A DNA stretch of 64,000 bases from IMG/VR virus record IMGVR_UViG_3300032236_000747, positions 186,001 to 250,000 of that record. One strand, written 5' to 3'. Both the position numbers and the translations under genes were made by a program. This document shows positions 14,933 through 59,071 of this stretch, one piece after another. Within the stretch, counting starts at the first letter, position 1; each line of letters opens with the position of its first letter. The notes under the pieces were generated by a model that had not been told where the DNA came from, searched no databases, and worked only from the letters and a program-made list of their open reading frames with translations. The stretch is from a virus.

Positions 14933-17440
14933 GTGTCATCAAGAAATAGTGTTCAGCATTTTATATCAACTACTGAACCCAATAACGTACAGTTAGGTGA
15001 CGAGTGGTTAAATCCCACAACCGGTATTCTATACAAACGAACACTGGTCAATGGATCTGTTGCCTGGGCAGCTACCGGTCAAACTAACTCTAGTAATGTT
15101 ACATTGTTTAGTGGCGGTCAGTCTGGTCAAGTACTGCAGATAGTCAATAATACACCTACCTGGGTTAATACCAGTACTTTGATAGCGGTTGCTAGTAGTG
15201 GCGGCGGCGCAAGTTTAAATGCCAGCTGTTCTTTGATTATTAACGTATTTAATGCTGGTTCCGGTCCGGATAATATAGCAATAGGAGCCTATGCCCTTTG
15301 CTCAACTACTGCTGGCTGCAATATTGCACTTGGTCGTTCAGCACTGTTATCTAATACTACAGGTGTTTATAATTTTGCTGCCGGAGTCAACACTCTCGGA
15401 AGTAATACTTACGGTAATCATAATGTAGCCATTGGCGGAACAGCTCTTTACTCTAATACCAGCGGTGGATGTAATATTGCCATTGGCGTAAACACACTTT
15501 TTAAAAATACTAGCGGTTTTAATAATTTTGCTGCTGGCAGTAATGCGTTAACGTGTAATACTACAGGAAATAATAACACAGCTATTGGGTATTATGGACT
15601 GAAAAGTAACACCTATGGTATCAATAATACAGCGATCGGTTGCGGTGCACTCTGCTGCAATATTTCAGGTAATAGCAATACTGCTATTGGTTTTTATGCG
15701 TTAAGCAGAAGTAAAACATCAAATAATAACGTAGCAATCGGTTATTGTGCTTTATATTCGTTCAACGGCGGCGCAAGCTATGGAGGTTGTAATATTGCCA
15801 TAGGCACAGGTACCATGGCTTTAATAACATCTGGTTGTAATAATATTGCCATGGGCAATAATGCATTATGTTCCTCTCTTCTTAACGCCACATTTAATGT
15901 TGCTATTGGTAATAATGCAATGTCTACTACCTGTCTTTCTGACAGCAACGTAGCAATAGGACCTAGTGCTCTTAGGGGGGTTGTGGGAGTATGTAACGTT
16001 GCGTGTGATAGTGTTGCGATTGGTTCAGGTGCTTTAGGCTCTAGTGCTTGTTCTAAGTACGACGTAGCCATGGGCTATTCACCACTTAGTCAAAATACTG
16101 GTACAGGTAATGTTGCTATAGGACAGTTTGCTATGTATGCTAGTCTGTCGGCCTGCCACAGTATTGCAATCGGTAGTAATGCGTTAAGCTGTGCCTGTTG
16201 TGCTAACCTTAACATAGCACTAGGGTGCTATGCTCTAGCATGTTCATTATCGGGTACACAAAATATCGCAATCGGATCTACTGCTGCTTGCGCACTTGCT
16301 CAAGGCTACGGTAACGTGGCTATCGGATGTTGTGCTCTAGGTTTTTCAAATGTCGGATGTGATAATGTGTTCATTGGTCGAAATACTGGCCGAGGATCAA
16401 ACACTACCAGCAGCGCCGGCGTTCATAATCTGGCATTAGGTTATGGTGCATTAGTTAATAATAATGCTAATAGTTATAATATAGCCATGGGGTATCAAAG
16501 TCAGTATTGTGCTTCAAGCACATGTCAGAACATATCATTGGGTCGTTTATCAATGACGTGTGCGCTCACTGGCGCTAACAATATTGCCATTGGTTATTGT
16601 TCACTCTTTGCAAACTGCGGTCCTAATAACGTTGCCTTGGGATATGGCACAAACCCTGCCGGCGGAACTGGTAATATTTCTATAGGTAGCTATGCTAACT
16701 CTAACGTAAATGGAAACTACAATATAGCAATCGGCACATGTGCAAGCCTTGGCTGTAGCCTAGGTGCGCTATCTGGGTGTCATAATACTACTATGGGATT
16801 TAAAGCAGGATCCCTGTTGTGTTCAGCAGCCGTGCATAATCTTGCCATCGGCTGTGGCGCATTATGTAGTGCTTGTTTATCTTGTTGTAATATTGCTCTA
16901 GGTAATGGTACACTAATGTCAACTACTACCGGTAACAACAATACCGCAGTTGGTTATTGCGCAGGAACAACCAATACCTACGGAAATAATAATACATTTA
17001 TAGGTAGTGGAGCGTTTGGTGCTAGTGCTACTAGTTGTAATGCTATTACACTGGGTAATTCTAGTATTACCACAATTCGTGCTCAGGTAACTACCATTAC
17101 AGCACTATCAGATTGTCGTGATAAAACTAATATCTGCGGATTACCTATTGGACTTGATTTTATTCGTGCACTGCGTCCAGTTAAGTTTGACTGGAATATG
17201 CGAGATGGCGCCAAGGTAGGAATACCAGAAGCTGGATTTATTGCTCAAGAACTAGATGAAGTACAAACTAGATTTACAGCAACTGACTACCTAAACTTAA
17301 TCTTAAAAGAAAATACAGAACGATTAGAAGCTACTCCTGGTAAACTGTTACCAGTATTAGTAAAAGCAGTACAAGAACTAGCTCAAGAAAATGAAGATTT
17401 AAGATCTAGGATTGAAATCTTAGAAGGGAAAATAGTATAA
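14933..17440 (+). CDS. Repeat fibre with C-terminal S74 chaperone domain (first of two)
   Basis: An 835-residue fibre starting at GTG, with TAGGAG 8 nt upstream. The first ~90 residues (EPNNVQLGDEWLNPTTG...VNTSTL) are an attachment-type N-terminus. The middle is an array of 17-residue NNIAIG repeats, rich in cysteine (I count about 44 in the whole protein). The C-terminal ~120 residues match the S74 intramolecular chaperone of endosialidase-type fibres: LSDCRDKTNI, then FIRALRPVKFDWNMRDG, PEAGFIAQELDEV and a coiled-coil tail (LAQENEDLRSRIEILEGKIV). In this family the chaperone trimerises the fibre and then cuts itself off before the Ser, using a Ser/Lys pair five residues apart; S and K of S-D-C-R-D-K have that spacing. 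Confidence 0.82.
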   Translation: MSSRNSVQHFISTTEPNNVQLGDEWLNPTTGILYKRTLVNGSVAWAATGQTNSSNVTLFSGGQSGQVLQIVNNTPTWVNTSTLIAVASSGGGASLNASCSLIINVFNAGSGPDNIAIGAYALCSTTAGCNIALGRSALLSNTTGVYNFAAGVNTLGSNTYGNHNVAIGGTALYSNTSGGCNIAIGVNTLFKNTSGFNNFAAGSNALTCNTTGNNNTAIGYYGLKSNTYGINNTAIGCGALCCNISGNSNTAIGFYALSRSKTSNNNVAIGYCALYSFNGGASYGGCNIAIGTGTMALITSGCNNIAMGNNALCSSLLNATFNVAIGNNAMSTTCLSDSNVAIGPSALRGVVGVCNVACDSVAIGSGALGSSACSKYDVAMGYSPLSQNTGTGNVAIGQFAMYASLSACHSIAIGSNALSCACCANLNIALGCYALACSLSGTQNIAIGSTAACALAQGYGNVAIGCCALGFSNVGCDNVFIGRNTGRGSNTTSSAGVHNLALGYGALVNNNANSYNIAMGYQSQYCASSTCQNISLGRLSMTCALTGANNIAIGYCSLFANCGPNNVALGYGTNPAGGTGNISIGSYANSNVNGNYNIAIGTCASLGCSLGALSGCHNTTMGFKAGSLLCSAAVHNLAIGCGALCSACLSCCNIALGNGTLMSTTTGNNNTAVGYCAGTTNTYGNNNTFIGSGAFGASATSCNAITLGNSSITTIRAQVTTITALSDCRDKTNICGLPIGLDFIRALRPVKFDWNMRDGAKVGIPEAGFIAQELDEVQTRFTATDYLNLILKENTERLEATPGKLLPVLVKAVQELAQENEDLRSRIEILEGKIV
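15260..17050 (+). repeat. 17-residue cysteine-rich fibre repeats, second array
   Basis: NNIAIG-type coding repeats in the first S74 fibre. Spacing is less regular than in the giant fibre because of insertions of several residues between units. Confidence 0.8.
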
Positions 17441-17441
17441 C

Positions 17442-20400
17442 ATGACCATAGCTTTTAACATAGCTACTTTATTAAGTAGCACAGCTACTCAAACTATTGG
17501 TACTGCTACAAATAGTGCTGTTTCTGTAAACTTATCAGGCGGCGCCGCTGGCTCTTTACCCTACCAAAGTGCTCCTAATGCCACTGTATTTTTATCCGTA
17601 GGCACTAATGGACAGGTATTGCAGTTAGTTAGCGGAGTTCCAACTTGGGTTAACACCAGTACATTAATAGCAGCCGGCGCTGGTGGTGGCGCCAGTTTAA
17701 ACGCTTATTGTTCATTGATTATTCAAGGAGCAACTGTTGGGTCTAGCACTGGTCTAAACAACTTTGCCGTTGGATGTTGTGCTCTATTTGCCAACACCAC
17801 AGGTTGTAATAATATTGCCTTAGGTTTTAACAGTCTTAACGGAAATACTACAGGTAGTAATAATATTGGAATGGGCTACGGTTCTTTAAAAAATAGTGCC
17901 ACCGGCGTATGTAACATTGCTATCGGCATTCAAGCCATGTTCTGTAACTGTGGATATAATAATATTGCCATGGGCCAGGCCCTGGGTAGTAATGGTGTTG
18001 GTTCTATCAATGTTGCTATAGGTAATTTTGTTTTAAGCACAGCAGGTCATTCCGGGTGTTATAATATAGGTATAGGTAGCAACGCTCTTCAAAATAACGT
18101 AAGTGGTTGTAGCAATATTGCTCTTGGTTTTGCCTCTCTAATACTTAATAATGGCGGAAGCAATAACGTTGCGTTAGGACTGTGCGCCCTTTATAATAAT
18201 ACAGCAAGTAACAACATAGCCATTGGCAGCAATGCGCTAGTCTTAAATACTGCCAGCCAATTCAATACTGCAATAGGCATAGGTGCTGCTGCTGGACACT
18301 CTATTTTACTTAACTGTAGTAAAGGATGTAATACAGCAATAGGTTATTGTGCTTATAACTGCGTTGGCGGTTATGGTAATACTGCTATAGGTTTCTGTGC
18401 TATGAGTACAGGCACTGGCATAAACTATAATAATGTGGCACTGGGATACAAAGCTATGTCCTGTGTAGGTTGCTCAGCTAGCAGTTTTGGCAACGGATAC
18501 AATGTAGGCATCGGATATGGTGCAATGTCAAAGAGTGGTAACCAGGCCAACGTGGGCATTGGTTACCTTGCCTTAAATGGCGGACCAGCAGCTATTCCTG
18601 CTGATTTAGTAACAAATGCGTGTAATGTTGCCATAGGTACAACAGCAATGTCGTGTTCTACCGCAAGTATACATAATGTAGCAATAGGCGCCAGTGCATT
18701 AAAGGCAACAAAATGTGGGTGTTTTAATGTTGGTGTAGGAACCTGTGCAGGATACGGCATTGGTTCTCCGGCTTGTTTGAATACTTTTTTAGGAGCTTAT
18801 GCCGGTGGTGCTGGCTTGATTACCGGATGCTATAATGTTGGCATCGGTGCATGTTCAATGTATGCTGGTTCTTTTGCGGCAGGTTGTTTCAATATAGGTA
18901 TTGGGGCATGTACACACCGATTCGCTGTTAGTCCAGTTAATACCATAGCTATTGGTCAAACGGCCATGGGCGGCTCGTTGTGTACTACAGTTGATAATAT
19001 TGCTATTGGCTCATTTTCTATGTTTGGTTGCGGAATAAGTTCCAGCGGCGCTTGTAATATCGCAATTGGTTTGAACTCGATGTATACAAACTGTGCTGGC
19101 TATGGTAACGTAGCTATTGGTGCTAATACCATGGTCGGAGCTCCTTTTACTGGTTACACAGCATGCCTTAACGTGGCTATAGGACATTGTGCTCTAAATA
19201 CTGTTACTACTGCGATATCTAATATCGCTATTGGAGCTACTGCTCTAAAATCTAATACCAGCGGCTGTTATAATACAGCTATCGGATTGTGCGCATTGTA
19301 TAGTAACACTACTGGTCTTAGTAACGTAGCAATAGGAGTTAATACCTTACTTGGTAATACATACGGTTATAATAACTTTGCCGTTGGTCCAAACGCTCTG
19401 CGTTGTAATATCACAGGATGTAATAACATTGCTATAGGATATAGCGCCCTTTATAATAGCACTAGTGCCTTTAATATTGCTATTGGGTGTGCTGCCATGT
19501 GCTGTAACACTATCGGTACCTATAATGTTGCCATAGGAGACGGAGCAATACAATGTAACAGTACCGGTAAACAAAATGTAGCCGTTGGTGGTATAGCAAT
19601 GAACAGTAATACCAGCGGCTACGGTAATACTGCTATAGGTTATACTGCTATGGCATGTAATACTACCGGTGCAAACAACGTCGGAGTTGGGCGATATGCT
19701 TTATATGCTAATACTACCGGAAGTAATAATGTCGGATTAGGTGTCGGCGCACTATGCGGTAACATTACCGGAAATGCTAACATTGCTATTGGATATGATG
19801 CCCTTTATCAAAGTACAGGCGGTAACTGTAATATTTCGCTAGGTTCCTTCTCAATGCAGTCTAATACCAATGGTAGCTTTAATGTAGCACTTGGGTATCA
19901 ATCGTTGAGCTCTAATACCAGCGGTTGTTATAACATTATTATGGGATTTAACGCAGGGTATGCTAACACTGCTGGAAACTATAATAGTGCTATTGGATAC
20001 CAAGCTCTTAATAAAAATACCACTGGCTCTAATAATGTTGCTATAGGACCTAGTGCTCTTTATGGAAATACAACAGGTCAGCATAATATTGCTTTAGGGT
20101 TTAATACTTTAGTAACAGCGGGTTATGGATACTATAATGTAGCAATAGGATGTCAAGCACTATATCTTAATACTACTGGATGTAATAACGTTGCTATTGG
20201 TGGAATGGCAGGATGTACTAATACTACAGGCGTTAATAACGTATTCATAGGCTGTAATGCCAACGGTCTTGCTGCTACTTGCTCAAACACTATTACACTA
20301 GGTAATTCCAGTATCGCTACTATCCGTGCTCAGGTCACTACTATTACCGCGCTATCAGATTGTAGAGATAAAACAAATATTTGCGGATTACCAATTGGAC

Positions 20401-20675
20401 TTGATTTTATTCGTGCCCTACGCCCAGTTAAGTTTGACTGGAATATGCGAGATGGCGCCAAAGTAGGTATACCAGAAGCTGGATTTATTGCTCAAGATCT
20501 TGACGAAGTACAGAAGAAGTTCACAGCAACTGATTATCTAAACTTGATCATCAGCAACGAGGACGGGTCAAGATTGGAAGCAACGCCTGGTAAACTTTTA
20601 CCAGTTCTAGTACAAGCTGTTAAAGAACTAGCAGCCGAAGTAGATAGACTCCGTTTACTAGTAGAGCCACAATAA
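17442..20675 (+). CDS. Repeat fibre with C-terminal S74 chaperone domain (second of two)
   Basis: A 1077-residue fibre whose ATG follows the previous stop by 1 nt; GAAGGGA lies ~15 nt upstream. The N-terminus differs from that of the preceding fibre, but residues ~80-115 (GASLNAYCSLIIQGAT..., FAVGCCALFANTTG) are nearly the same as a segment of the giant fibre at ~5800-5910. A long cysteine-rich NNIAIG repeat array follows. The last ~140 residues carry an S74 chaperone almost identical to that of the first S74 fibre (LSDCRDKTNI, LPIGLDFIRALRPVKFDWN, GFIAQDLDEV) with the Ser/Lys pair kept, diverging again in the coiled-coil tail. Two S74 fibres in tandem suggest alternative or heteromeric tips. 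Confidence 0.82.
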   Translation: MTIAFNIATLLSSTATQTIGTATNSAVSVNLSGGAAGSLPYQSAPNATVFLSVGTNGQVLQLVSGVPTWVNTSTLIAAGAGGGASLNAYCSLIIQGATVGSSTGLNNFAVGCCALFANTTGCNNIALGFNSLNGNTTGSNNIGMGYGSLKNSATGVCNIAIGIQAMFCNCGYNNIAMGQALGSNGVGSINVAIGNFVLSTAGHSGCYNIGIGSNALQNNVSGCSNIALGFASLILNNGGSNNVALGLCALYNNTASNNIAIGSNALVLNTASQFNTAIGIGAAAGHSILLNCSKGCNTAIGYCAYNCVGGYGNTAIGFCAMSTGTGINYNNVALGYKAMSCVGCSASSFGNGYNVGIGYGAMSKSGNQANVGIGYLALNGGPAAIPADLVTNACNVAIGTTAMSCSTASIHNVAIGASALKATKCGCFNVGVGTCAGYGIGSPACLNTFLGAYAGGAGLITGCYNVGIGACSMYAGSFAAGCFNIGIGACTHRFAVSPVNTIAIGQTAMGGSLCTTVDNIAIGSFSMFGCGISSSGACNIAIGLNSMYTNCAGYGNVAIGANTMVGAPFTGYTACLNVAIGHCALNTVTTAISNIAIGATALKSNTSGCYNTAIGLCALYSNTTGLSNVAIGVNTLLGNTYGYNNFAVGPNALRCNITGCNNIAIGYSALYNSTSAFNIAIGCAAMCCNTIGTYNVAIGDGAIQCNSTGKQNVAVGGIAMNSNTSGYGNTAIGYTAMACNTTGANNVGVGRYALYANTTGSNNVGLGVGALCGNITGNANIAIGYDALYQSTGGNCNISLGSFSMQSNTNGSFNVALGYQSLSSNTSGCYNIIMGFNAGYANTAGNYNSAIGYQALNKNTTGSNNVAIGPSALYGNTTGQHNIALGFNTLVTAGYGYYNVAIGCQALYLNTTGCNNVAIGGMAGCTNTTGVNNVFIGCNANGLAATCSNTITLGNSSIATIRAQVTTITALSDCRDKTNICGLPIGLDFIRALRPVKFDWNMRDGAKVGIPEAGFIAQDLDEVQKKFTATDYLNLIISNEDGSRLEATPGKLLPVLVQAVKELAAEVDRLRLLVEPQ
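17720..20290 (+). repeat. 17-residue cysteine-rich fibre repeats, third array
   Basis: NNIAIG-type coding repeats in the second S74 fibre, most regular from about 19200 to 20250, where NTTG/NTSG turns and AL/A-M positions recur every 17 residues. Confidence 0.8.
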
Positions 20676-46133: not shown

Positions 46134-47210
46134 ATGGCAAAGGCCTTCGATATTTCGAAGTTCCGCAAGTCTATCACTAAATCTATTGATGGCTTGGGAA
46201 TAGGGTTTAATGACCCAACCGATTGGATTTCAACCGGTAACTATGCCCTTAACTATCTTATCTCAGGGGACTTCTTCAAAGGAGTCCCTTTGGGAAAAGT
46301 AACAGTTTTTGCTGGCGAATCTGGTGCAGGTAAGAGTTATATCTGTTCAGGTAACATTATCAAAGCCGCACAAGAACAGGGCATTTATGTTATTCTTGTC
46401 GACAGCGAAAATGCTCTTGATCAGAAATGGCTTGAAGATCTCGGTGTTGATACAAGTGATGAAAAGCTTCTAAAACTTAACATGGCTATGATCGACGATG
46501 TAGCTAAAACTATTTCCGAGTTTATGAAAGAATACAAAGTTATGCCAGAGGAATCGCGTCCTAAGGTGTTATTTGTAATCGACAGCTTGGGTATGTTGTT
46601 GACTCCAACTGACGTTAATCAGTTTGAAGCAGGTGAAATGAAAGGTGACATGGGCCGTAAGCCTAAAGCACTTACATCACTTGTTCGTAACTGTGTAAAC
46701 ATGTTTGGTTCGTGGAACGTAGGTATGGTTTGTACAAATCACACATACGCAAGTCAAGATATGTTTGATCCAGATGATAAGATTAGCGGTGGACAAGGAT
46801 TCATTTATGCTAGCTCTATTGTAGTTGCTATGCGTAAGTTAAAACTTAAAACAGACGCAGATGGCAATAAAACATCAACTGTAAACGGTATTCGTAGTGC
46901 TTGTAAGATTATGAAAACTCGTTATGCTAAGCCATTTGAAAGTGTACAAGTTGAGATTCCATATACAACAGGTATGAGCCCGCACAGCGGATTGGTTGAT
47001 TTGTTTGAAGCTAAAGGTATGCTAACTAAAGAAGGTAATAGCCTTGTTTACACAACATCCGATGGCGAGATTATTAAGCAGTTCCGCAAGGCTTGGGAAA
47101 AGAATGAAAAAGATGGTTTAACAATCATGATGGCTGACATTTCCAAGAACGGAGAAAAACCTGAAGTTCTAGTAGTAACAGAAGATAGTGAGGAAACACA
47201 AAATGGATGA
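46134..47210 (+). CDS. uvsX: UvsX recombinase (RecA-like)
   Basis: A 358-residue RecA/Rad51-family recombinase. Walker A GESGAGKS at about 61-68, ILVDSENALDQKWL, Walker B VLFVIDSLGMLLTP (~144-157) and KISGGQGFIYASSIVVAMR are typical of T4-like UvsX. It coats ssDNA with the help of UvsY and drives strand invasion for recombination-dependent replication. GGGGAT lies before the ATG, 11 nt after gene 32. Confidence 0.95.
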   Translation: MAKAFDISKFRKSITKSIDGLGIGFNDPTDWISTGNYALNYLISGDFFKGVPLGKVTVFAGESGAGKSYICSGNIIKAAQEQGIYVILVDSENALDQKWLEDLGVDTSDEKLLKLNMAMIDDVAKTISEFMKEYKVMPEESRPKVLFVIDSLGMLLTPTDVNQFEAGEMKGDMGRKPKALTSLVRNCVNMFGSWNVGMVCTNHTYASQDMFDPDDKISGGQGFIYASSIVVAMRKLKLKTDADGNKTSTVNGIRSACKIMKTRYAKPFESVQVEIPYTTGMSPHSGLVDLFEAKGMLTKEGNSLVYTTSDGEIIKQFRKAWEKNEKDGLTIMMADISKNGEKPEVLVVTEDSEETQNG

Positions 47211-47451
47211 AGCATTGATTATGGAAATATGGGATACATTCAAAGAATATATCTCTGACAAAAATAAGGATATGGCTGCAACTCAATACGTAGATTACCT
47301 TCTAGGTAAAGATGTTGAAACTAGTATTCTTGAAGGACTTGTTGGTTATGACAGTCATTTAGACGATGCTATTAAACAAGCATTAGCAGATGAAGGTTAT
47401 GAAGACATCAGTGACGACGAAGAACACTATATCGACGACGAGGACTATTAA
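47203..47451 (+). CDS. Small acidic conserved protein between uvsX and uvsY
   Basis: An 82-residue acidic protein (MDEALIMEIWDTFKEYISDK ... SDDEEHYIDDEDY). The ATG at 47203 is preferred over an in-frame GTG at 47188 because GAGG lies 9 nt upstream of it. It overlaps the end of uvsX by 8 nt and uvsY by 1 nt (TAATG). I recognise it as a companion of uvsX in aquatic T4-like phages; function unknown. Confidence 0.75.
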   Translation: MDEALIMEIWDTFKEYISDKNKDMAATQYVDYLLGKDVETSILEGLVGYDSHLDDAIKQALADEGYEDISDDEEHYIDDEDY

Positions 47452-47909
47452 TGTCGCAATGGTATGCCAAGGTTAGCCAGGACATATCACATTTACCCGC
47501 TTGTATCGATTACTTCTACAAAGAGTTAACCGATGCTAGGTCTGAGATTAAGATTTATGGTGTTATCGAAAAAGCCAGTGCGTCATTGCCCGGAATAGTT
47601 GAACATCGTTTTAACCAGCTTCAAGAAATTGAAGCTGTGTTAGAATATCTTAACATCGAACTACGGCGTGTACGTTCTAAGACCTTTAAAAAATATCTCG
47701 AAAACTATCAACGTTCTCTTAGTTCACGCGATGTTGAAAAATATGTCGACGGTGAAGCAGATGTTGTTGATATGGAAAAGATTATCAACGAGTTTGCGCT
47801 TTTGCGCAATCAATGGTTAGGTATTGTCAAAGGCCTTGACATTAAACAATGGCAACTTTCAAATATTATTAAACTACGGGCTGCGGGACTAGACGACGCA
47901 TCACTATAA
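47451..47909 (+). CDS. uvsY: UvsY-like recombination mediator
   Basis: A 152-residue all-helical protein. RSKTFKKYLENYQRSLSSRD, VEKYVDGEADVVDMEKIINE and LLRNQWLGIVKGLDIKQWQL follow the order of T4 UvsY segments (ARLDYYSGRGD..., KTVLSADKDVLKVDT, and a C-terminal helix). UvsY loads UvsX onto gp32-covered ssDNA. Similarity to T4 itself is weak; the call rests on helix pattern, size and place between uvsX and uvsW. Confidence 0.72.
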   Translation: MSQWYAKVSQDISHLPACIDYFYKELTDARSEIKIYGVIEKASASLPGIVEHRFNQLQEIEAVLEYLNIELRRVRSKTFKKYLENYQRSLSSRDVEKYVDGEADVVDMEKIINEFALLRNQWLGIVKGLDIKQWQLSNIIKLRAAGLDDASL

Positions 47910-49144
47910 TGTATATAGAAGACATTCTTAGCAAACTAGTTGGGCATCACGCCATCTTTCATACTCAATATCCTCCTAAATTTCTTAGTCCTAATGAACT
48001 TGGGTTACTAACTAGTTTTGTATCACAAATAGAGAATCTCAACGGTCTAAGTGAAAAGCAGGCAACCATAGCTGAACGTATATTGAGAAGCAGATGCTTG
48101 GAAGTGTCGGCGTATATTGCTGTTGACATACTCAAATACCTAGAAAATCCTAGATATAGACTAGCTAGAAAAATGTTTAGTAAAAATAAAACAGCAAAAC
48201 TAGTAACAGAGGCCAACGGAGTTAAACAAATCGCCTTGTCGTTCCCCTACGACGAAGAACTTGTTCTTTCAATCAAAGCCAAGAAGGCAGACCTGTTTTC
48301 GAAGAAAAATCTCCCAGGTAGAAAAACTATATTATGGGACCCGGAAACTAGATCTTGGAAATTTGGCCTATACGAAGACCTCATTAGTTGGCTGAATCAA
48401 ACTCTTATCAATAGAGGATTTACTTTTGATGAAGATTTACAGACATATATGTCTGCCGTTAAAGAAATAGAAGAAAATGTAGAAAAACACATACCTATGG
48501 TAGTGTTCGAAGACAACGAATTCAAATATATTAACGTGCATAAAAATATTCCTCAACCCGTTAGTACACATTTGTTAGAAGTATTGTTTGAGGCGAGAAA
48601 ATACGGAATCAATACATGGGATGAACACATTGACCAAGCATTGAAAGACAAAATGATTGGAAAATTGTCTAGACATGTATTAGTTGACAGTGATTTCTTA
48701 AGGCATGATAAAGTTGCCAAGATAAATCCTAATGATTTTACGTTTTCCGACTTTGAAGATATAATAAAATATAATGATGCTGCGGTTATTGTTATCCCAG
48801 GTGGGGCTGAACTCGAATCCATGCGTTACTGCTACCAGCAACTGAAAAATTTAGGGTACACTAGTGAACAACTGGCGGCAATGTTTAGAGTAGACGGAGA
48901 AAAGGGAAAAGCGGCCAATGATTTTATCAAAGAAAACTACCTCAATAATCCTATCTCTGAAAAAGTAAAAATTTATTTTGTTAGTCAGAAGTATCCTAAG
49001 CCTATGATCAAGAATAAAGTAAAAGTTGGTACTGTGATAACCTTGGGAAATACAAATCCACACAATACGTTGAGAAATTTCATCAATAATCATAACACTG
49101 TATTTTCCTATGACCTAAAAAAAGAAAAAAATGGCAACCTGTAA
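47909..49144 (+). CDS. HARP-like / pseudo-helicase companion of UvsW
   Basis: A 411-residue protein. Residues ~105-170 include LPGRKTILWDPETRSWKFGL, which resembles the HARP motif (W-D-P-E-T-xx-W) of SMARCAL1-type annealing helicases. The C-terminal half (AAVIVIPGGAELESMRYCYQ, LGYTSEQLAAMFRV, KIYFVSQKYPKPMI) has the alternating strand/helix order of the second RecA-like lobe of a helicase but lacks Walker A and DExH motifs. It may guide UvsW or stand in for part of a remodelling complex; this is inference. It overlaps uvsW by 14 nt. Confidence 0.6.
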   Translation: MYIEDILSKLVGHHAIFHTQYPPKFLSPNELGLLTSFVSQIENLNGLSEKQATIAERILRSRCLEVSAYIAVDILKYLENPRYRLARKMFSKNKTAKLVTEANGVKQIALSFPYDEELVLSIKAKKADLFSKKNLPGRKTILWDPETRSWKFGLYEDLISWLNQTLINRGFTFDEDLQTYMSAVKEIEENVEKHIPMVVFEDNEFKYINVHKNIPQPVSTHLLEVLFEARKYGINTWDEHIDQALKDKMIGKLSRHVLVDSDFLRHDKVAKINPNDFTFSDFEDIIKYNDAAVIVIPGGAELESMRYCYQQLKNLGYTSEQLAAMFRVDGEKGKAANDFIKENYLNNPISEKVKIYFVSQKYPKPMIKNKVKVGTVITLGNTNPHNTLRNFINNHNTVFSYDLKKEKNGNL

Positions 49145-50594
49145 AGTTATAATAAAAGATGAAGTAAACGTTAAGATAGAAAATTTAGATCTTGACACAC
49201 GAAAGGCATTGGTTAAGAAATTTAAGTACGAAGACCCAACAGCACGCTATCGTCCGGCCTATAAATTGGGTCGATGGGACGGATCTATCCCATTTTTTGG
49301 TCTAGGAGGAACTACCTATCTTTCATTGATTGAGCGAGTCCTTGAAGAATTAGAAAATAGACATTATTACATTGAGATCGAAGATCTGCGAGTTAGCCCG
49401 GTCCTGGAATTTCCTGAAATTTCTGAGGATTTTTGGGGTGATGCAACGTGGCCAGAAGGGCATCGTTTCGCCGGCGAAAAGATTAGACTGCGTGATGACC
49501 AAGTTGAAGTAGTTAACATCTTTTTACGTAATCCACAAAGCATACAAGAGATTGCTACTGGTTTTGGCAAGACCATTACCACCGCAACTTTGGCGAAAAT
49601 TTGTGAAAAATACGGTCGTACAGTAACCATTGTTCCTAACAAAAGTTTAGTTGAACAAACTGAGGAAGATTTTGTTAACGTAGGTTTAGACGTAGGTGTT
49701 TATTATGGAGATAGGAAACAACTCAACAAAACACACACAATCTGTACTTGGCAAAGTCTCAATATTTTAGACAAAAATAGCAAAAATGCCTCAGAAAATG
49801 AGGAAATTTTAACCCTGGCAGAATTGCTTGATGGAGTTAAATGTGTAATGGTTGACGAAGTACACATGGCTAAGGCAGAAGTTCTAAAAAAGCTAATGAC
49901 ACACAACTTAGCCAATACTCCTATTCGCTGGGGATTAACAGGAACCATTCCAAAACAGGATTTTGAGGTGGAAACTATTAAAGCAAGCATTGGAGATATT
50001 GTAAATCATGTCAAGGCTCACACATTACAAGAAGCAGGTGTATTAAGTCAATGTCACGTTAATATTGTTCAAACAGCCGAGTGGAAAGAGTTTGGCAGCT
50101 ATCCTGAAGAGTTAAAATATATCGTCACAGATGAGAAAAGAATGAAGTATGTTAGCAACCTTATCGACGAAATATCTAAAACAGGTAATACACTAGTATT
50201 GGTTGACAGAATAGAGACAGGGCGTATAATAACAAGTAATATAGAGGATAGTGTTTTTGTTTCAGGTGAAGTAAAGACAACGAAACGCAAAGAAGAATAT
50301 GACGAAATTAAAACATCTGATAACAAGATTATTGTGGCGACTTACGGTGTGGCCGCTGTGGGTATTAATATTCCAAGGATTTTTAATTTGGTTCTTCTTG
50401 AACCCGGAAAGAGCTTTGTACGAGTTATACAAAGTATTGGGCGAGGTATTAGAAAGGCAGATGACAAAGACTTTGTCCAAATCTGGGACATAACTGCTGG
50501 TACAAAATATGCCAAGAGACACCTCACTGATAGAAAGAAATTTTATCGAGAAGCACACTATCCTTTTACGATAGAAAAGACAAAATACATATAA
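49131..50594 (+). CDS. uvsW: UvsW helicase
   Basis: A 487-residue superfamily 2 helicase. The N-terminal ~110 residues contain the UvsW-specific domain with the LGRWDGSIPFF loop. Motif I ATGFGKT (~142), motif II VDEVHMAK (~241), motif III LTGTIP (~268) and motif VI QSIGRGIRKAD (~432) are intact. In T4, UvsW unwinds R-loops and branched DNA and shifts replication from origin to recombination start. It sits in the uvsX-uvsY-HARP-uvsW unit and its stop overlaps the next start (TAATG). Confidence 0.93.
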   Translation: MATCKVIIKDEVNVKIENLDLDTRKALVKKFKYEDPTARYRPAYKLGRWDGSIPFFGLGGTTYLSLIERVLEELENRHYYIEIEDLRVSPVLEFPEISEDFWGDATWPEGHRFAGEKIRLRDDQVEVVNIFLRNPQSIQEIATGFGKTITTATLAKICEKYGRTVTIVPNKSLVEQTEEDFVNVGLDVGVYYGDRKQLNKTHTICTWQSLNILDKNSKNASENEEILTLAELLDGVKCVMVDEVHMAKAEVLKKLMTHNLANTPIRWGLTGTIPKQDFEVETIKASIGDIVNHVKAHTLQEAGVLSQCHVNIVQTAEWKEFGSYPEELKYIVTDEKRMKYVSNLIDEISKTGNTLVLVDRIETGRIITSNIEDSVFVSGEVKTTKRKEEYDEIKTSDNKIIVATYGVAAVGINIPRIFNLVLLEPGKSFVRVIQSIGRGIRKADDKDFVQIWDITAGTKYAKRHLTDRKKFYREAHYPFTIEKTKYI

Positions 50595-51109: not shown

Positions 51110-52210
51110 ATGAGTTATTTGTTTACAAGCGAAAGTGTGTCAGAAGGACACCCAGATAAAGTTGCTGATGCGATCAGTGACGCCATTCTAGACCTAGTAA
51201 TGGCACAAGAAAATCCTGCACTACGTTGTGCATGTGAAACATTAGTTACTACCAATCAAGTAGTAGTTGCTGGCGAATACAAAGGCATCTTACATAATGA
51301 AGATGTTGAATCAGCTATTCGCAAAACAATCAAAAATATTGGATATGAACAAGATGGATTTAACTGGGAAACAGTTAACATCACAAATCTATTACACGGA
51401 CAAAGCGCAGATATTGCCTTGGGTACAGATACATTTGGTGCAGGTGACCAGGGACTAATGTTTGGATATGCCTGTGATGAAACTGACAGTCTTATGCCTA
51501 GTGCGATTTACTGGAGCCATAAGATTGTTGAAAAGTTAACCGTTGAACGTAAGGCAGGTAGATTACCTTGGTTAGGCCCAGACGCAAAGAGCCAAGTTAC
51601 ATTTGAATATGATGATGTTGGTCGTCCATCTCGCATTGCTAAAGTTGTTTGTTCTACACAGCACAGCGAAGACATGCCTATTGAAGTAGTACGTGCGGCA
51701 GTTGAAGAAGTTATTCGCGGTGTGTTACCCATGGAGTATATTGATGATAGAACTAGTTTCCATATTAATCCTACCGGTCGCTTTGTTATTGGAGGGCCTG
51801 ATGGAGATACTGGACTCACCGGAAGAAAAATTATCGTTGATACTTACGGTGGTTATAGTCCTCATGGCGGAGGTGCCTTTAGCGGAAAAGATCCTACTAA
51901 AGTTGATAGAAGTGCTGCTTACATGATGCGTTGGATTGCTAAGAATATCGTAGACAGTGGAAGAGCACGTTGGGCAACTTGTCAGATTAGTTATGCTATC
52001 GGTCTAGCTGAACCTATGAGCTTTTATATTGAAACCTACGACCCTGTTGTGTCACGTAACCTAGTTAGTTGGATTCAAGACAACATTGACCTAACTCCCA
52101 AAGGTATCATTGAACGCTTTGATCTATTCCGTCCGATCTACAGTTCAACTACAAATTACGGTCATTTTGGTAAAAAAGATTTACCATGGGAAGAAACTAA
52201 TCTATTCTAA
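51110..52210 (+). CDS. metK: S-adenosylmethionine synthetase
   Basis: A 366-residue MetK (E. coli: 384) with all signature parts: LFTSESVSEGHPDKVADAIS at residues 4-23 (GHPDK with the catalytic His), GAGDQGLMFGYACDET, LPWLGPDAKSQVTFEYDD, NPTGRFVIGGPDGDTGLTGR, KIIVDTYGG, HGGGAFSGKDPTKVDRSAAY and a short C-terminal YGHFGKKDLPWEETN. It makes SAM from ATP and methionine. Shortening is at the C-terminus and in small loops, not in the active site. In a phage it could feed methyltransferases or radical-SAM enzymes, or restore a SAM pool. AAGGA lies just before the ATG. It lies inside the replication gene block. Confidence 0.93.
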   Translation: MSYLFTSESVSEGHPDKVADAISDAILDLVMAQENPALRCACETLVTTNQVVVAGEYKGILHNEDVESAIRKTIKNIGYEQDGFNWETVNITNLLHGQSADIALGTDTFGAGDQGLMFGYACDETDSLMPSAIYWSHKIVEKLTVERKAGRLPWLGPDAKSQVTFEYDDVGRPSRIAKVVCSTQHSEDMPIEVVRAAVEEVIRGVLPMEYIDDRTSFHINPTGRFVIGGPDGDTGLTGRKIIVDTYGGYSPHGGGAFSGKDPTKVDRSAAYMMRWIAKNIVDSGRARWATCQISYAIGLAEPMSFYIETYDPVVSRNLVSWIQDNIDLTPKGIIERFDLFRPIYSSTTNYGHFGKKDLPWEETNLF

Positions 52211-52922: not shown

Positions 52923-53401
52923 CTGAAACAATTTTTTACGTAAAGAAAGGCCGTCGCTATGTTCCCGCCAGCACCTACTCTACTGAGTTCTGTGACAGTT
53001 TCCCTAAAGGTACTCATCTTGTGCAAAGTTATCCTGGTGGTAGCAGCCGTAGGTACAATATTGATCCTGCGTATGCTCCCATGATTGCCGCAGGGCGTGT
53101 TGCTGAAGATGTTATTAGCAAACGTATTATGGATGCTACAGAGATTCGCCGCAACTCACGTAGTAGAGAAACACCACTTACGCCCGAACAAAAAGCAGCT
53201 TGGGACCATCTTGTAGAAGTTTTTGGACCCGATGCTAAACAACTAGAATGGCCCAGCGCTCGTGAGTGTGCAGAAGCGGCTGTTGAAGCAATGACCAAGG
53301 AAGCAGAGAAACTTTTAGCCAATCCTGCGGTTCGTAAGGCCTATGATCATTTTCTATGTGTTGCTGCACTAACAAAAGAAAATGTTAAGGACACTGTATG
53401 A
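52919..53401 (+). CDS. Conserved hypothetical protein
   Basis: A 160-residue protein beginning with FYVKKGRRYVPASTYSTEF, an opening that occurs in several phage proteins of unknown role, then SGIPKGTHLV-like FPKGTHLVQSYPGGSSRR, and a helical C-terminal half with LTPEQKAAWDHLVEVFGPD. It overlaps its neighbours by 4 nt at both ends (ATGA), in a coupled run of small genes. Confidence 0.62.
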   Translation: MTETIFYVKKGRRYVPASTYSTEFCDSFPKGTHLVQSYPGGSSRRYNIDPAYAPMIAAGRVAEDVISKRIMDATEIRRNSRSRETPLTPEQKAAWDHLVEVFGPDAKQLEWPSARECAEAAVEAMTKEAEKLLANPAVRKAYDHFLCVAALTKENVKDTV

Positions 53402-53628
53402 AAGACATGAAAGGATTTGCATTTAATGTAGGCTGCAAAGTTGCTCGCGCTGTACTATGGTCGAGTCAAAGTCCTCGCATTGAAATCTGTGAAGTGACTG
53501 CTATCAAAGACGGAAAGATCTACTTAGACGATAGTAAACAAGCATTAAAATTTCCGGAACGCCTTTTAATCATTGAACAAGACCCATTGTACAGAATGGT
53601 TAAAAACTATAAGAAAGATGAAGAATGA
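53398..53628 (+). CDS. Small beta-rich protein of unknown function
   Basis: A 76-residue protein (GFAFNVGCKVARAVLWSSQS ... EICEVTAIKDGKIYLDDSKQ ... PERLLIIE) with an SH3-like or small barrel look. ATGA overlap with both neighbours. No assigned role. Confidence 0.58.
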   Translation: MKDMKGFAFNVGCKVARAVLWSSQSPRIEICEVTAIKDGKIYLDDSKQALKFPERLLIIEQDPLYRMVKNYKKDEE

Positions 53629-53810
53629 AAGAGTTATCTCGCTTTACAAAAGATGATAAAACTGCTATCGTTAAAGGTGATGGCGGTAGTTATGTTGTTG
53701 AGTTATTTGTTAATAATCAACTAGTTGAAACAAAGGTCTTTGCCGAACATACTCTACGTATTGTTGAAAACAACGCCAAGACTTGGATTGAGAATGATAG
53801 CATTGGTTGA
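53625..53810 (+). CDS. Small protein of unknown function
   Basis: A 61-residue beta-rich protein (LSRFTKDDKTAIVKGDGGSY, VVELFVNNQLVETKVF). The next gene's start lies 17 nt inside its 3' end. Real by coupling and composition; role unknown. Confidence 0.55.
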   Translation: MKELSRFTKDDKTAIVKGDGGSYVVELFVNNQLVETKVFAEHTLRIVENNAKTWIENDSIG

Positions 53811-54489
53811 TCAACCTTTTACCTGTGTTCACTGTAGCAAGAGTTTTATGCAAGAGAAAACTCTCTATGCCCACATGTGTGAAAACAAACGCAGAGCCAT
53901 GCAGAAAGACGAGAAGCGTGTTCAGGCAGGCCTTCTAGTCTTTAATAGATTTTTTAGACTTACACAAAACGCCAAGAAAGACAAGACCTATGAGGACTTC
54001 ACTAAGAGTCCTTACTACAATGCGTTTGTTAAGTTTGGATCATTCATTTGTAATGTCAATCCTTTGTACCCTGACAAGTTTATTGACTATGTTATTAAGA
54101 GTGGCGTTAAGTTAGATCATTGGGCCAGTGATTCATTGTATGACAAATATCTCTATGACATCATCAAAACTGAACCAGTTGAATCAGCAGTTCAACGAAC
54201 TGTTAATCACATGATGGATTGGGGTGATACCAGCGGAGCACAGTTTAATCATTACTTTAACTATGTTAATATAAACAGATCTGTACAAGACATACGCAAT
54301 GGAAAAATAACTCCTTGGATATTGTTGAATACCAAAACAGGCAAGGAACTTTTATCAAAGTACAGCGACGAACAGTTAGAACTTATTGCTCCTGCCCTAG
54401 ACATTCCATATTGGTCGAGAAAGTTTAAACAGGTACCGGCGGATGTTGCGTTGGTGAAAGAAATATGCAAAGAGGCAGGCATAGAATGA
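53794..54489 (+). CDS. Zinc-finger protein conserved in aquatic T4-like phages
   Basis: A 231-residue protein (start MIALVDQPFTCVHC at the ATG 53794; an earlier in-frame start at 53725 would overlap the previous gene by 86 nt). The N-terminus holds a C2H2/C2HC-type finger, C-V-H-C-x12-H-x2-C (CVHCSKSF...LYAHMCENKRR). Then LLVFNRFFRLTQ, KDKTYEDFTKSPYYNAFVKF and a helical remainder. I recognise the family but no function is assigned; a nucleic-acid-binding role is likely from the finger. Confidence 0.68.
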   Translation: MIALVDQPFTCVHCSKSFMQEKTLYAHMCENKRRAMQKDEKRVQAGLLVFNRFFRLTQNAKKDKTYEDFTKSPYYNAFVKFGSFICNVNPLYPDKFIDYVIKSGVKLDHWASDSLYDKYLYDIIKTEPVESAVQRTVNHMMDWGDTSGAQFNHYFNYVNINRSVQDIRNGKITPWILLNTKTGKELLSKYSDEQLELIAPALDIPYWSRKFKQVPADVALVKEICKEAGIE

Positions 54490-54797
54490 ATCAAGATGTG
54501 TTATTGAAAAAGTTATGTCAGGAATTTGGCGGAACTGCAACTGTTAGTGAACAAAGATTTGTAAGGATCCACCCGCCGGGCTCCTGGGATTTTATGAGCA
54601 CCATTGCAGATTATAAATCCACAATAATAGAAGGTGTTGCTATACATATTCCGAAAGATAGGCTCGACGATTTTTTAAGTGTGTTTGATGAACAGAAGTA
54701 TTTAGAAATGCAAATAAGGGAAAACATACCTGCTGTAAAAATAGCCTACGAACGCTATCGAATGTTGTTAAAAATGTGTGGGAGCGACTATGCCTGA
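54486..54797 (+). CDS. Small protein of unknown function
   Basis: A 103-residue alpha/beta protein (FGGTATVSEQRFVRIHPPGS, IIEGVAIHIPKDRLDDFLSV). ATG overlaps the previous stop (ATGA) and its own end overlaps the DnaE-like gene by 8 nt. No domain recognised. Confidence 0.58.
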   Translation: MNQDVLLKKLCQEFGGTATVSEQRFVRIHPPGSWDFMSTIADYKSTIIEGVAIHIPKDRLDDFLSVFDEQKYLEMQIRENIPAVKIAYERYRMLLKMCGSDYA

Positions 54798-55368
54798 TGT
54801 TGATATCGACTTCTTAAATAGGTTAGATGTACTTGATATAGTCAAGCATGTTCCCGCAAGACTTGAAGACGGTAAAAAACATAACACAGGCGTTTATTGT
54901 CAATCCATTCCAGTAAATCCCCTAACCGGACTTGCTAATATAAACTACACAGAAGCAGAAGCTAGGGGATATTTTAAGATTGACTTTTTGAATGTAAGTG
55001 CCTATTCAGGCATCAGAAATGAAGATCACATCAAAGAGTTACTAGCAGTTGAACCTCTATGGGATCTGTTATATGAGAAAGATATTTGTGATCAACTATT
55101 TCATATCAACGGTTATCATACATTATTAGCAACGCTAAAGCCTACTAGTATATTAGACCTAGCCACTGTGCTAGCGTTGATTAGACCGGGTAAAAAGCAC
55201 TTAGTTGACCAGTGCGTAAAGGAAGGATTTGGTAGTATACAGAAGGAAGTATGGACCAAGACTGACGAAGGATATAGTTTTAAAAAGAGTCATGCTGTAG
55301 GCTATGCCCACGTTATTGTTATGCAGTTAAATTTAATCTGCGAAAATATCAGCCTCGGGTTTTCTTAG
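54790..55368 (+). CDS. Miniature DnaE (DNA polymerase III alpha)-like protein
   Basis: A 192-residue protein whose motifs follow bacterial DnaE in order but with nearly everything between removed. MPDVDIDFLNR at residues 1-11 equals the PDxDxDF catalytic pair; FKIDFLNVSAYSGI (D65) equals the third catalytic Asp segment (KFDFLGL...); LKPTSILDLATVLALIRPGK (~118-137) equals the kPxsfxDLxAxxALxRPGP block; FKKSHAVGYAHVIVMQLNLI (~163-182) equals the FNKSHAxAYxxxxYQTAYLK block. PHP, fingers and clamp/ssDNA-binding parts are absent, so it cannot be a normal replicase. GGAG lies 5 nt before the ATG. See the separate finding. Confidence 0.65.
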   Translation: MPDVDIDFLNRLDVLDIVKHVPARLEDGKKHNTGVYCQSIPVNPLTGLANINYTEAEARGYFKIDFLNVSAYSGIRNEDHIKELLAVEPLWDLLYEKDICDQLFHINGYHTLLATLKPTSILDLATVLALIRPGKKHLVDQCVKEGFGSIQKEVWTKTDEGYSFKKSHAVGYAHVIVMQLNLICENISLGFS

Positions 55369-55732
55369 GATTTTTGACTAGTTGTATTGAACGTCTTTTG
55401 ATTCGTTTTTCTGCTATGTCCCCTAGATTTACAGTGGGTCCGAAAACGATTTCTATGTCTTTGCTATTAAATGTTTTGATATAGGGCCGGTAATAGATCA
55501 TTGTATCTTTTAGGAAAATATTAATAGGTATGCGTCTATTTGACTCCCACCACCAAGTTTCTCCTAGTTCTAAAAATACCTTTTTCTCATCGTCCGATTT
55601 CATGCATTCCAGATCATAGATACTGGTAACATAATCGTCGTAGTTGATAACAATTCCTACATATTCCACGTCGTTTGACTTGACGCAGGTAATAAATGGA
55701 AACTTTTCCTGAAACGTGTTCTTGATTGTCAT
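55349..55732 (-). CDS. Conserved hypothetical protein on the opposite strand
   Basis: A 127-residue protein (FPFITCVKSNDVEYVGIVIN, WWWESNRRIPINIFLKD, FGPTVNLGDIAEKRIKRR) that I recognise as a small, widespread aquatic T4-like phage gene of unknown function. It runs leftward, its 3' end overlapping the DnaE-like gene by 20 nt. The basic C-terminus could bind nucleic acid. Confidence 0.65.
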   Translation of the reverse strand: MTIKNTFQEKFPFITCVKSNDVEYVGIVINYDDYVTSIYDLECMKSDDEKKVFLELGETWWWESNRRIPINIFLKDTMIYYRPYIKTFNSKDIEIVFGPTVNLGDIAEKRIKRRSIQLVKNPKKTRG

Positions 55733-56618: not shown

Positions 56619-57611
56619 ATGAGTTTCATGCTGAACGCTTTGCTAGCGGTCTTACCTCCAAATAGAAAACAAACACCCAGTGGATGGATGAGTTTTGATG
56701 CACCTTGTTGTCATCACAGGGGAGAAACTCGTGATGACCGCAAACGTGGCGGAGTAATGATATCCGGTGACGCTTTTAGCTATCATTGCTTTAACTGTAA
56801 CTTCAAAGCAGGATGGAGTCCGGGTAAAACTCTAAGCACCAACACACGCAAGTTGTTCAGTTGGTTGGGTGTATCAGACACAGAAATAGCCAGACTGGCC
56901 ATGGATGCACTGCGTGCGCATGAGTCGTTGCCTGTTAAGAAAAGAGAATACAGTTTTGAACTCAAAGAAGTTGAGCTTCCAGAAAACTGTCTACCCATAT
57001 TAGATCCTAGTCTAGTTGACAGGGCCGATACTAGATGGTTAGATGCTGTTATGTATCTAGCTGATCGCAAAATAGATCTTGATTGGTATCCATTTATGTG
57101 GGCAGATGCCGATGGTTATAGAGATCGTGTTATCATACCCTTTTACCAAGATAACAAGATAGTCGGTTATACAGCACGTAAAATCAAAGAAGGCAAGCCC
57201 AAATACCTAGCACACAATCAGCCTGGGTATGTGTTTAACCTAACTGGTCAACCTCGTGAAAGAAAGTATGTTATAGTAGTTGAAGGACAGTTTGATGCCA
57301 TATCTATAGACGGTGTGTGCGTAGGTCACAATGATCCCAACGAAACGCAAACATCGAGAATAAACGCACTGGCCCGTGAAGTTATAGTTGTACCAGATAG
57401 AGACAAAGCAGGCGCACAACTTCTTAACTCTGCGCTTGCCAATGGCTGGAGTGTGAGCTTACCACCCTGGGGCGATGACATAAAAGATGTAGCAGACGCA
57501 GTTAAGAGATATGGTAGATTATACACGCTAGCCGCGATATTAGAATACAGAACCGCTAATCAGCTAAAAATACAAGTAATGCAAAAGAAACTACAAGGAC
57601 TACATAAATGA
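56619..57611 (+). CDS. 61: gp61-like DNA primase
   Basis: A 330-residue primase (T4 gp61: 342). The zinc-binding N-terminus has APCCHHRGE and YHCFNCNFKAGW. The catalytic RNA-polymerase/TOPRIM part has VIVVEGQFDAIS (~217-228, with the catalytic Glu) and IVVPDRDKAG (~255-264, the DxD pair). It makes pentaribonucleotide primers on the lagging strand together with gp41. Its end overlaps gp41 by 4 nt. Confidence 0.92.
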   Translation: MSFMLNALLAVLPPNRKQTPSGWMSFDAPCCHHRGETRDDRKRGGVMISGDAFSYHCFNCNFKAGWSPGKTLSTNTRKLFSWLGVSDTEIARLAMDALRAHESLPVKKREYSFELKEVELPENCLPILDPSLVDRADTRWLDAVMYLADRKIDLDWYPFMWADADGYRDRVIIPFYQDNKIVGYTARKIKEGKPKYLAHNQPGYVFNLTGQPRERKYVIVVEGQFDAISIDGVCVGHNDPNETQTSRINALAREVIVVPDRDKAGAQLLNSALANGWSVSLPPWGDDIKDVADAVKRYGRLYTLAAILEYRTANQLKIQVMQKKLQGLHK

Positions 57612-59071
57612 TCAAACAAGACAAAGACAAACCTAACTACGATATTGAAATACAAAAACTCTACTTGGAAATGTTTCTCAGCGATGCTGAAACGTTTAGT
57701 CGTTGCCAAAGCATATTTGACCCTGATAATTTTGACCAAAAGTTACAGGAGACAGCAAGGTTTATTACCACATATGTAGACGAGTATAAACTTATTCCGG
57801 ACGTTAGTATTGTCAATGCTACTTGTAAAAAGGACCTACAGATAGTATCTTTGCCCGCTCAAAACTATGAATGGCTCAAGGATGAATTTGAGCAATTTTC
57901 CAGGCACAAGGCCTTGGAACGTGCGATCATGAAGAGCTTTGATTTGCTGGAAGAAGGCGAGTATGGGCCAGTTGAAAAGCTGGTCAAGGACGCTATTCAA
58001 ATCAGTTTAACCAAGGACATGGGCACTGATTACTTCGAAGATCCCAAAGCACGTCTAACTGCGCTCAAGGACGGAAATGGTCAAATTTCCACTGGTTGGC
58101 CCAGCATTGACAAAAAATTGTATGGGGGCTTTAATCGAGGTGAACTCAATATTTTCTGTGCTGGATCAGGCGGTGGTAAGAGTTTGTTTCTTGCTAACAT
58201 GGGCGTAAACTGGGCCATGCAGGGTCTAAACGTGCTTTACTTGACCTTTGAATTAAGTGAAAAATTAGTGGCCATGCGCCTGGATTCTATGGTCACAGGT
58301 ATCACAACCAGAGACATCTTTAAGAGCATTGATGATGTTGAATTAAAGGTTAAAATGATCGGAAAAGCTTCGGGAAGCATACAAATCAAGTATATGCCCA
58401 GCGGAAAAAATTGTAACGATATTCGGTCATATTTGAAGGAATATCAGGTCAAAAAAGGCCTAAAACCTGACGTAATTTTAATAGATTACCTGGATTTAAT
58501 GATGCCACTAAATGTGAAGGTATCGCCCAGCGATCTCTTTGTTAAAGACAAATATGTGTCAGAAGAGATACGTAACTTGGCCATGGAAACACAGTGTATC
58601 ACTGTAACAGCTAGTCAGCTAAACCGCGCTGCCGTTGAAGAAATTGAGTTCGATCACAGCCATATCAGCGGTGGCTTGTCAAAGATCATGACAGCGGATA
58701 ACGTTATTGGTATCTTTACCAGTCGTGCTATGCGTGAGCGTGGACGCTATCAAATCCAGTTTATGAAGACACGTTCCAGCTCAGGCGTGGGTCAAAAGGT
58801 AGACTTGGAATTTAACGTGGAAACCCTGCGTATCAGTGATCTAGGTGATGAAGGCGATGTGGGTGCAGGCAGCAACAATAGGCCTGGATCAAACACTACT
58901 CAGGGCAGTGTATATGCTGGACTCAAGCGTACCAGCACAGTCACAGCAGATCCAGAAACAGGTGAAATCGCAGATCCCACAGTGGGCATAAATGCTCCAA
59001 AAATACGTGCTGAAGTAGGTGGTTCGCAACTGCGCAGTATGTTGGCTAAACTTAACTCAGAACGAGATTAA
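57608..59071 (+). CDS. 41: gp41-like replicative DNA helicase
   Basis: A 487-residue DnaB-family hexameric helicase (T4 gp41: 475). The N-terminal ~150 residues are helical; the RecA-like core has STGWPSIDKKLYGGFNRGEL, Walker A GSGGGKS (~186-192), LYLTFELSEKLVAMRL, Walker B VILIDYLDLMMP (~289-300), ITVTASQLNRAA and an arginine-finger region GRYQIQFMKTRSSSGVGQ. It unwinds the fork and activates gp61. Convergent with the AlgH-like gene (4-nt overlap). Confidence 0.93.
   Translation: MIKQDKDKPNYDIEIQKLYLEMFLSDAETFSRCQSIFDPDNFDQKLQETARFITTYVDEYKLIPDVSIVNATCKKDLQIVSLPAQNYEWLKDEFEQFSRHKALERAIMKSFDLLEEGEYGPVEKLVKDAIQISLTKDMGTDYFEDPKARLTALKDGNGQISTGWPSIDKKLYGGFNRGELNIFCAGSGGGKSLFLANMGVNWAMQGLNVLYLTFELSEKLVAMRLDSMVTGITTRDIFKSIDDVELKVKMIGKASGSIQIKYMPSGKNCNDIRSYLKEYQVKKGLKPDVILIDYLDLMMPLNVKVSPSDLFVKDKYVSEEIRNLAMETQCITVTASQLNRAAVEEIEFDHSHISGGLSKIMTADNVIGIFTSRAMRERGRYQIQFMKTRSSSGVGQKVDLEFNVETLRISDLGDEGDVGAGSNNRPGSNTTQGSVYAGLKRTSTVTADPETGEIADPTVGINAPKIRAEVGGSQLRSMLAKLNSERD

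Follow-up and report, generated by a model that had tools for sequence, protein, structure and literature searches.

A probable minimal core of DNA polymerase III alpha, split over two genes, in an uncultivated virus that also encodes a family B polymerase

Why should a virus with a family B DNA polymerase of its own carry, in addition, a small protein that resembles DnaE? The protein in question, 192 residues long, is encoded in the window (i.e., the whole stretch of 64,000 nucleotides analysed here), which corresponds to positions 186001-250000 of a virus genome of 354,680 bp; the searches of this genome were made family by family and stretch by stretch. An earlier note on this DNA described the protein as a "mini-palm" and offered three readings for it: (i) a mimic that draws off host polymerase III partners; (ii) a small nucleotidyltransferase; and (iii) part of a repair complex. 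The family B polymerase on which the puzzle depends is indeed present, as a PF00136 match (E 4e-32) in a frame of 904 amino acids.

The open reading frame and its immediate surroundings are as follows:

54790-55368, plus strand: C-terminal half (C-half) of a split minimal family C polymerase, 192 aa, open from ATG to stop, with the catalytic strand MPDVDIDF (D3, D5, D7), the KIDFLNV strand (D65) and a fingers fragment containing LFHINGYHTLLATLKPTSILDLATVLALIRPGK and FKKSHAVGYAHV
54780-54784, plus strand: Shine-Dalgarno-like GGGAG, 5 nt 5' of the C-half ATG (consensus reading)
54465-54797, plus strand: upstream ORF of 110 aa, sharing 8 nt with the start of the C-half

From its sequence, the 8-nt overlap makes translational coupling between the upstream ORF and the C-half possible. 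In the translation, all four motifs pointed out previously, MPDVDIDF among them, are found in DnaE order, and the length is, as had been stated, about one sixth of that of DnaE. The likeness to DnaE was upheld by profile searches, in which the C-half was matched by phrog_11778, annotated as "DNA polymerase" (E 1e-60), by phrog_405, the full phage DnaE family (E 1e-8), by TIGR00594 (E 6e-5, with a score far below the cut-off of that model) and by the fingers family PF17657 (E 7e-4, just under its cut-off). As judged from these matches, the likeness is not due to chance. Weak matches to arginine succinyltransferase and lipase were taken as chance.

In alignments with E. coli alpha, D3 and D5 correspond to D401 and D403, while D65 corresponds to the aspartate of the KMDFLGL/KFDFLGL strand; that is, the counterparts of the three catalytic aspartates of family C (D401, D403 and D555 in E. 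coli) are D3, D5 and D65, and all three are invariant. Across 58 distinct homologues, the invariant positions include D3, D5, D7, D65, K63, R11, H31, G34, Y36 and H168, so the metal-binding aspartates are kept and their loss in homologues, which would speak against a DnaE-like palm, did not occur. In a second alignment, of 41 rows, conservation likewise extends to two finger motifs of family C, IRPxK and FKKSHAxxYA. The homologues read are nearly constant in length (187-203 aa) and begin at the catalytic strand (M-PDVDIDF) or a few residues earlier. In an unsaturated pair of relatives, dN was 0.037 and dS 0.78, i.e., a dN/dS of approximately 0.05, a value that indicates strong purifying selection.

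The AlphaFold model of the C-half (pLDDT 89.5) matches the palm and fingers of family C, and the other outcome that would have weighed against the initial reading, a fold unlike the C-family palm, did not materialize either. Against the Taq family C polymerase, the model gave a Z of 10.4 with an rmsd of 3.4 over 186 residues; residues 1-190 align to E. coli alpha 400-781; and structural matches above Z 5 are confined to family C polymerases, in agreement with Foldseek. Several parts of the enzyme are absent, nevertheless. In DnaE, a helix and a loop with the GS motif (GRGS) precede the catalytic strand, and the C-half lacks this motif because its chain begins at that strand. The thumb (E. coli alpha ~420-510) has little or no counterpart, and a 110-residue fingers segment bearing the LRRAMGKK motif (E. 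coli 642-751) is mostly missing, so that synthesis directed by a template may be poor or may not take place. By alignment, the regions known to bear the clamp, tau and epsilon sites are also absent. Hence, the "mini-palm" holds insofar as the palm is DnaE-like, but not as a self-contained unit: its GS-motif part is encoded by a separate, distant gene.

This second gene was the single match to PF07733 in the genome, approximately 187 kb from the C-half:

53219-53740 of the virus genome (G000:C1:53219-53740 = L090:1222-1743), outside the window: N-terminal half (N-half), 173 aa, with the GS motif, ending in GVGRGSSVASYILYLLGVHKVDSIKYDLDITEFLK

The N-half belongs to PF07733 (E 2.5e-13) and to phrog_11127 (E 2e-44). 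That the genome might encode a complete DnaE at another locus was considered and rejected, since PF07733 finds the N-half alone. In profile alignments, N-half residues 100-172 correspond to E. coli alpha 320-392 and the C-half starts at 399; by this sequence comparison, the end of one chain and the start of the other fall at a single point of DnaE. The AlphaFold model of the N-half (pLDDT 88.0) matches E. coli alpha 279-393 through residues 79-173, with Z values of 8.5-9.7 for most E. coli entries and of 10.3 for the best chain, while residues 1-78 were assigned no counterpart in the fold comparison. The models of both halves thus show the polymerase-beta-type palm fold, with only family C chains exceeding Z 5, and both lack the PHP domain and anything past E. 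coli alpha ~781. The invariant positions are complementary: G141, R142, G143 and S144 in the N-half alignment, and D3, D5, D7 and D65 in the C-half. N-halves measure 168-181 aa and nearly all end at EFLK/EFLR or a few residues later. No natural fusion was found among the C-half frames or the N-half frames examined.

Relatives of the C-half were recovered by tblastn from 63 phage records, with carriers including the PA5oct group, the RaK2/121Q/GAP32/CBB group, Atu_ph07, Phosso, XacN1, SCTP-2 and RAS14; identity to the jumbo isolates is ~37-47%. Both halves occur together in 60 of the 60 phage records compared, the C-half records listed being the same 60 that have a close N-half match (three further C-half records lie outside that list). 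In the 14 phage records measured, the halves are 11-224 kb apart, and long IMG/VR records that have the pair place the C-half 146-188 kb from the N-half. The pair is also found in Slickus01, a 142-kb Alishewanella phage, at ~32% identity (C-half 203 aa, N-half 170 aa). In IMG/VR, the totals are similar (446-460 stretches for the C-half, 465-488 for the N-half), and long contigs with the N-half alone end, from their coordinates as read, short of the place expected for the C-half. In the marine branch, no free N-half was found in C-half contigs (up to 88 kb, all fragments), nor a C-half in N-half contigs (again all fragments); the pairing is not visible there because the contigs are too short.

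Outside phages, the search of plasmids with the C-half gave a sole, partial match, the DNA polymerase III alpha of a Lysinibacillus. In cellular genomes, the mini version turned up twice, in each case on a contig of an archaeal MAG (L349 and L350, binned as Natrialbaceae and Pacearchaeota), and these two are probably mis-binned phage contigs; the remaining matches, ~25-34% identical, were read as ordinary DnaE as a group rather than one by one.

The following genes of the window surround the C-half:

46134-47210, plus strand: UvsX-like recombinase (translation, with P-loop GESGAGKS, and the UvsX-UvsY-UvsW order of relatives)
47451-47909, plus strand: UvsY-like recombination mediator (phrog_231, E 3e-16)
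49131-50594, plus strand: UvsW-like helicase (translation; position and order as in relatives)
53725-54489, plus strand: C2H2-zinc-finger-like protein, phrog_11058, the conserved upstream neighbour of the C-half
55349-55732, minus strand: phrog_11637 gene, tail-to-tail with the C-half
56619-57611, plus strand: DNA primase (phrog_47, E 2e-34)
57608-59071, plus strand: gp41/DnaB-like replicative helicase (translation; order as in relatives)

This arrangement is a conserved cluster, which runs through uvsX, uvsY, a DnaQ-like gene in some relatives, uvsW, genes of no assigned function, the zinc-finger protein and the C-half, and continues 3' with the tail-to-tail gene, a virion protein, primase and helicase. 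The opposite-strand neighbour occupies the same place in Phosso, Atu_ph07, PAC2, GAP32, Hallingskeid, SCTP-2, Slickus01 and marine contigs. The N-half, for its part, has a GroES-like gene and a gp44-type clamp loader downstream of it in this virus (where the clamp loader was read from its translation), GAP32, PAC2 and Atu_ph07. Relatives do carry a DnaQ-like proofreader; none was detected by PF00929 in the present genome, in which a divergent one is possible.

Other features of these regions can be recorded. An S-adenosylmethionine synthetase-like gene (51110-52210, plus strand; by translation, with a match to phrog_1569, E 5e-118, which gives no function) sits within the recombination and replication cluster, and a T4-late-promoter-like TATAAATA is found at 55777 on the minus strand, just upstream of the phrog_11637 gene. 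In Slickus01, the Walker A region (ATNAGK/T) of the UvsW-like helicase (L186:3276-4991, minus strand) is interrupted by what appears, from its sequence, to be a mini-intein (ending ..ILTHN before TFICTAL). Nearer the beginning of the window (4078-12075 and 14933-20675, plus strand), three very long proteins (2665, 835 and 1077 aa) contain NxAIGxxAL-type repeats, and two of them end in a chaperone-like stretch (RDKTNICGL..GFIAQ); their sequences are suggestive of tail fibres or adhesins.

An arrangement of this kind has already been described. A split minimal Pol III alpha, accompanied by a family B polymerase, was reported for group 2.2 jumbo phages by Iyer et al. (2021; PMC7824862), who propose that it models the ancestral state; earlier papers on CBB and Atu_ph07 had noted one half only. 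That system consists of two stand-alone proteins encoded by distant genes (PHROG 11127 and PHROG 11778), an N-part which binds the nucleotide (GS) and a C-part which binds Mg2+ and the template. The following features of it are present here: a C-part of ~190 aa whose chain opens with the catalytic strand, a distant gene for the GS part and a family B polymerase. Nothing essential differs; the carrier is an uncultivated virus in which PF00929 found no DnaQ-like exonuclease. The virus is, therefore, a further member of the split minimal Pol III alpha system. In the literature searched, we found no report of a biochemical test of its function.

With DnaE/PolC, the halves share the palm fold, the GS motif, the three catalytic aspartates and, in the fingers, IRPGx and FKKSHAxxYA, all in the same order. 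In contrast, they are split at E. coli 393/399, add up to ~365 residues versus 1,160, and are devoid of PHP, thumb and OB parts, of the finger segment with LRRAMGKK and of the parts that bind clamp and tau. In cyanobacteria, DnaE also comes from two separate genes (DnaE-n and DnaE-c), whose pieces are joined by a split intein. Unlike these, the phage halves have no intein-like sequence at their facing termini (the C-terminus of the N-half and the N-terminus of the C-half); intein-mediated joining was thus rejected, and the assembly proposed below would be non-covalent.

The C-half and the N-half probably constitute a two-gene minimal Pol III alpha core whose products assemble into a nucleotidyltransferase. 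According to this proposal, the two chains would bind each other and rebuild one polymerase-beta-fold active site, where the GS loop of the N-half would hold the nucleotide phosphates and the aspartates of the C-half would hold two metal ions. Lacking the PHP domain, the thumb, some of the fingers and the parts that contact clamp and tau, the assembly would probably be distributive, and it could act in gap filling, primer extension or end processing. Since the genes sit among uvsX, uvsY, uvsW, primase and helicase, and near the clamp loader, it may help the family B polymerase and the UvsX/UvsY/UvsW machinery in the recombination-dependent replication or repair of phage DNA. The "small nucleotidyltransferase" and "repair complex" readings of the earlier note may then apply to the two-chain assembly, not to the C-half alone.

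The alternative that survives best is that the two-chain complex is a nucleotidyltransferase that does not follow a template, such as a terminal transferase or an RNA- or end-modifying enzyme which reuses the family C palm. The loss of the thumb and of the large fingers segment, together with invariant GS and Asp motifs, would suit such an enzyme, as would a phage that already owns a family B polymerase. Nevertheless, the closest folds are all replicative polymerases, the finger motifs IRPxK and FKKSHAxxYA are conserved and the neighbouring genes belong to replication and recombination; we regard this alternative as unlikely. A more specific version, in which the halves form a non-template nucleotidyltransferase in trans and their separate expression gates its activity in recombination-dependent replication, seems somewhat less likely still; if it is true, the family C fold would gain a new function.

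Alternatively, the pair could be a non-catalytic structural or regulatory subunit of the replisome, with a dead polymerase fold as scaffold, in keeping with the strong reduction of the fold, its division into two chains and its position next to clamp-loader and helicase genes. Yet few residues are as conserved as the metal ligands and those of the GS motif, which makes a scaffold improbable. The decoy suggested in the earlier note, by which a palm mimic would halt host replication by drawing off Pol III partners, draws on the likeness to DnaE and on the seeming redundancy of a second polymerase beside that of family B. In alpha, the PHP and C-terminal regions carry the epsilon, clamp and tau contacts. 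These partner-binding parts are absent by alignment, while catalytic residues that a decoy would not need are invariant, the genes lie within phage replication and recombination clusters and the pairing with a second half is constant; the decoy is, accordingly, very unlikely. Finally, a decaying remnant of a full DnaE, to which the short length might point, can be practically dismissed, given the dN/dS and near-constant length that rule out decay, the joint retention of both halves and a reading frame lost in no sampled relative.

A different compact relative was observed in the marine branch. On contigs that also carry the C-half family, single-chain DnaE proteins without PHP were found (L183:3158-4834, plus strand, and L187:700-2391, minus strand; 558-563 aa), and the same type is present on contigs of L024, L029, L036, L068, L191 and L216, with open frames of 548-582 aa overall. 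Like the split halves, they are PHP-less family C cores with the GS motif and the aspartates; in contrast to them, they form a single chain, read LPDVDIDF at the catalytic strand and keep a thumb-like segment and a YRRAFAKKNEE motif. Among phage records, LR756508, which is unannotated and 484 kb long, comes nearest to them (38%). From sequence, they are possibly an undescribed compact family C polymerase.

What is new here is (i) the pairing counts; (ii) the 142-kb carrier phage; and (iii) the ~560-aa PHP-less DnaE in marine carriers of the C-half. These results correct annotations that name one half as truncated, hypothetical or a membrane protein. In general terms, many giant phages with another polymerase keep, in two pieces, a much reduced form of the enzyme core by which bacterial chromosomes are copied. 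If active, this pair would indicate how small a part of DNA polymerase III suffices for catalysis; the split core also bears on the origin of this enzyme family.
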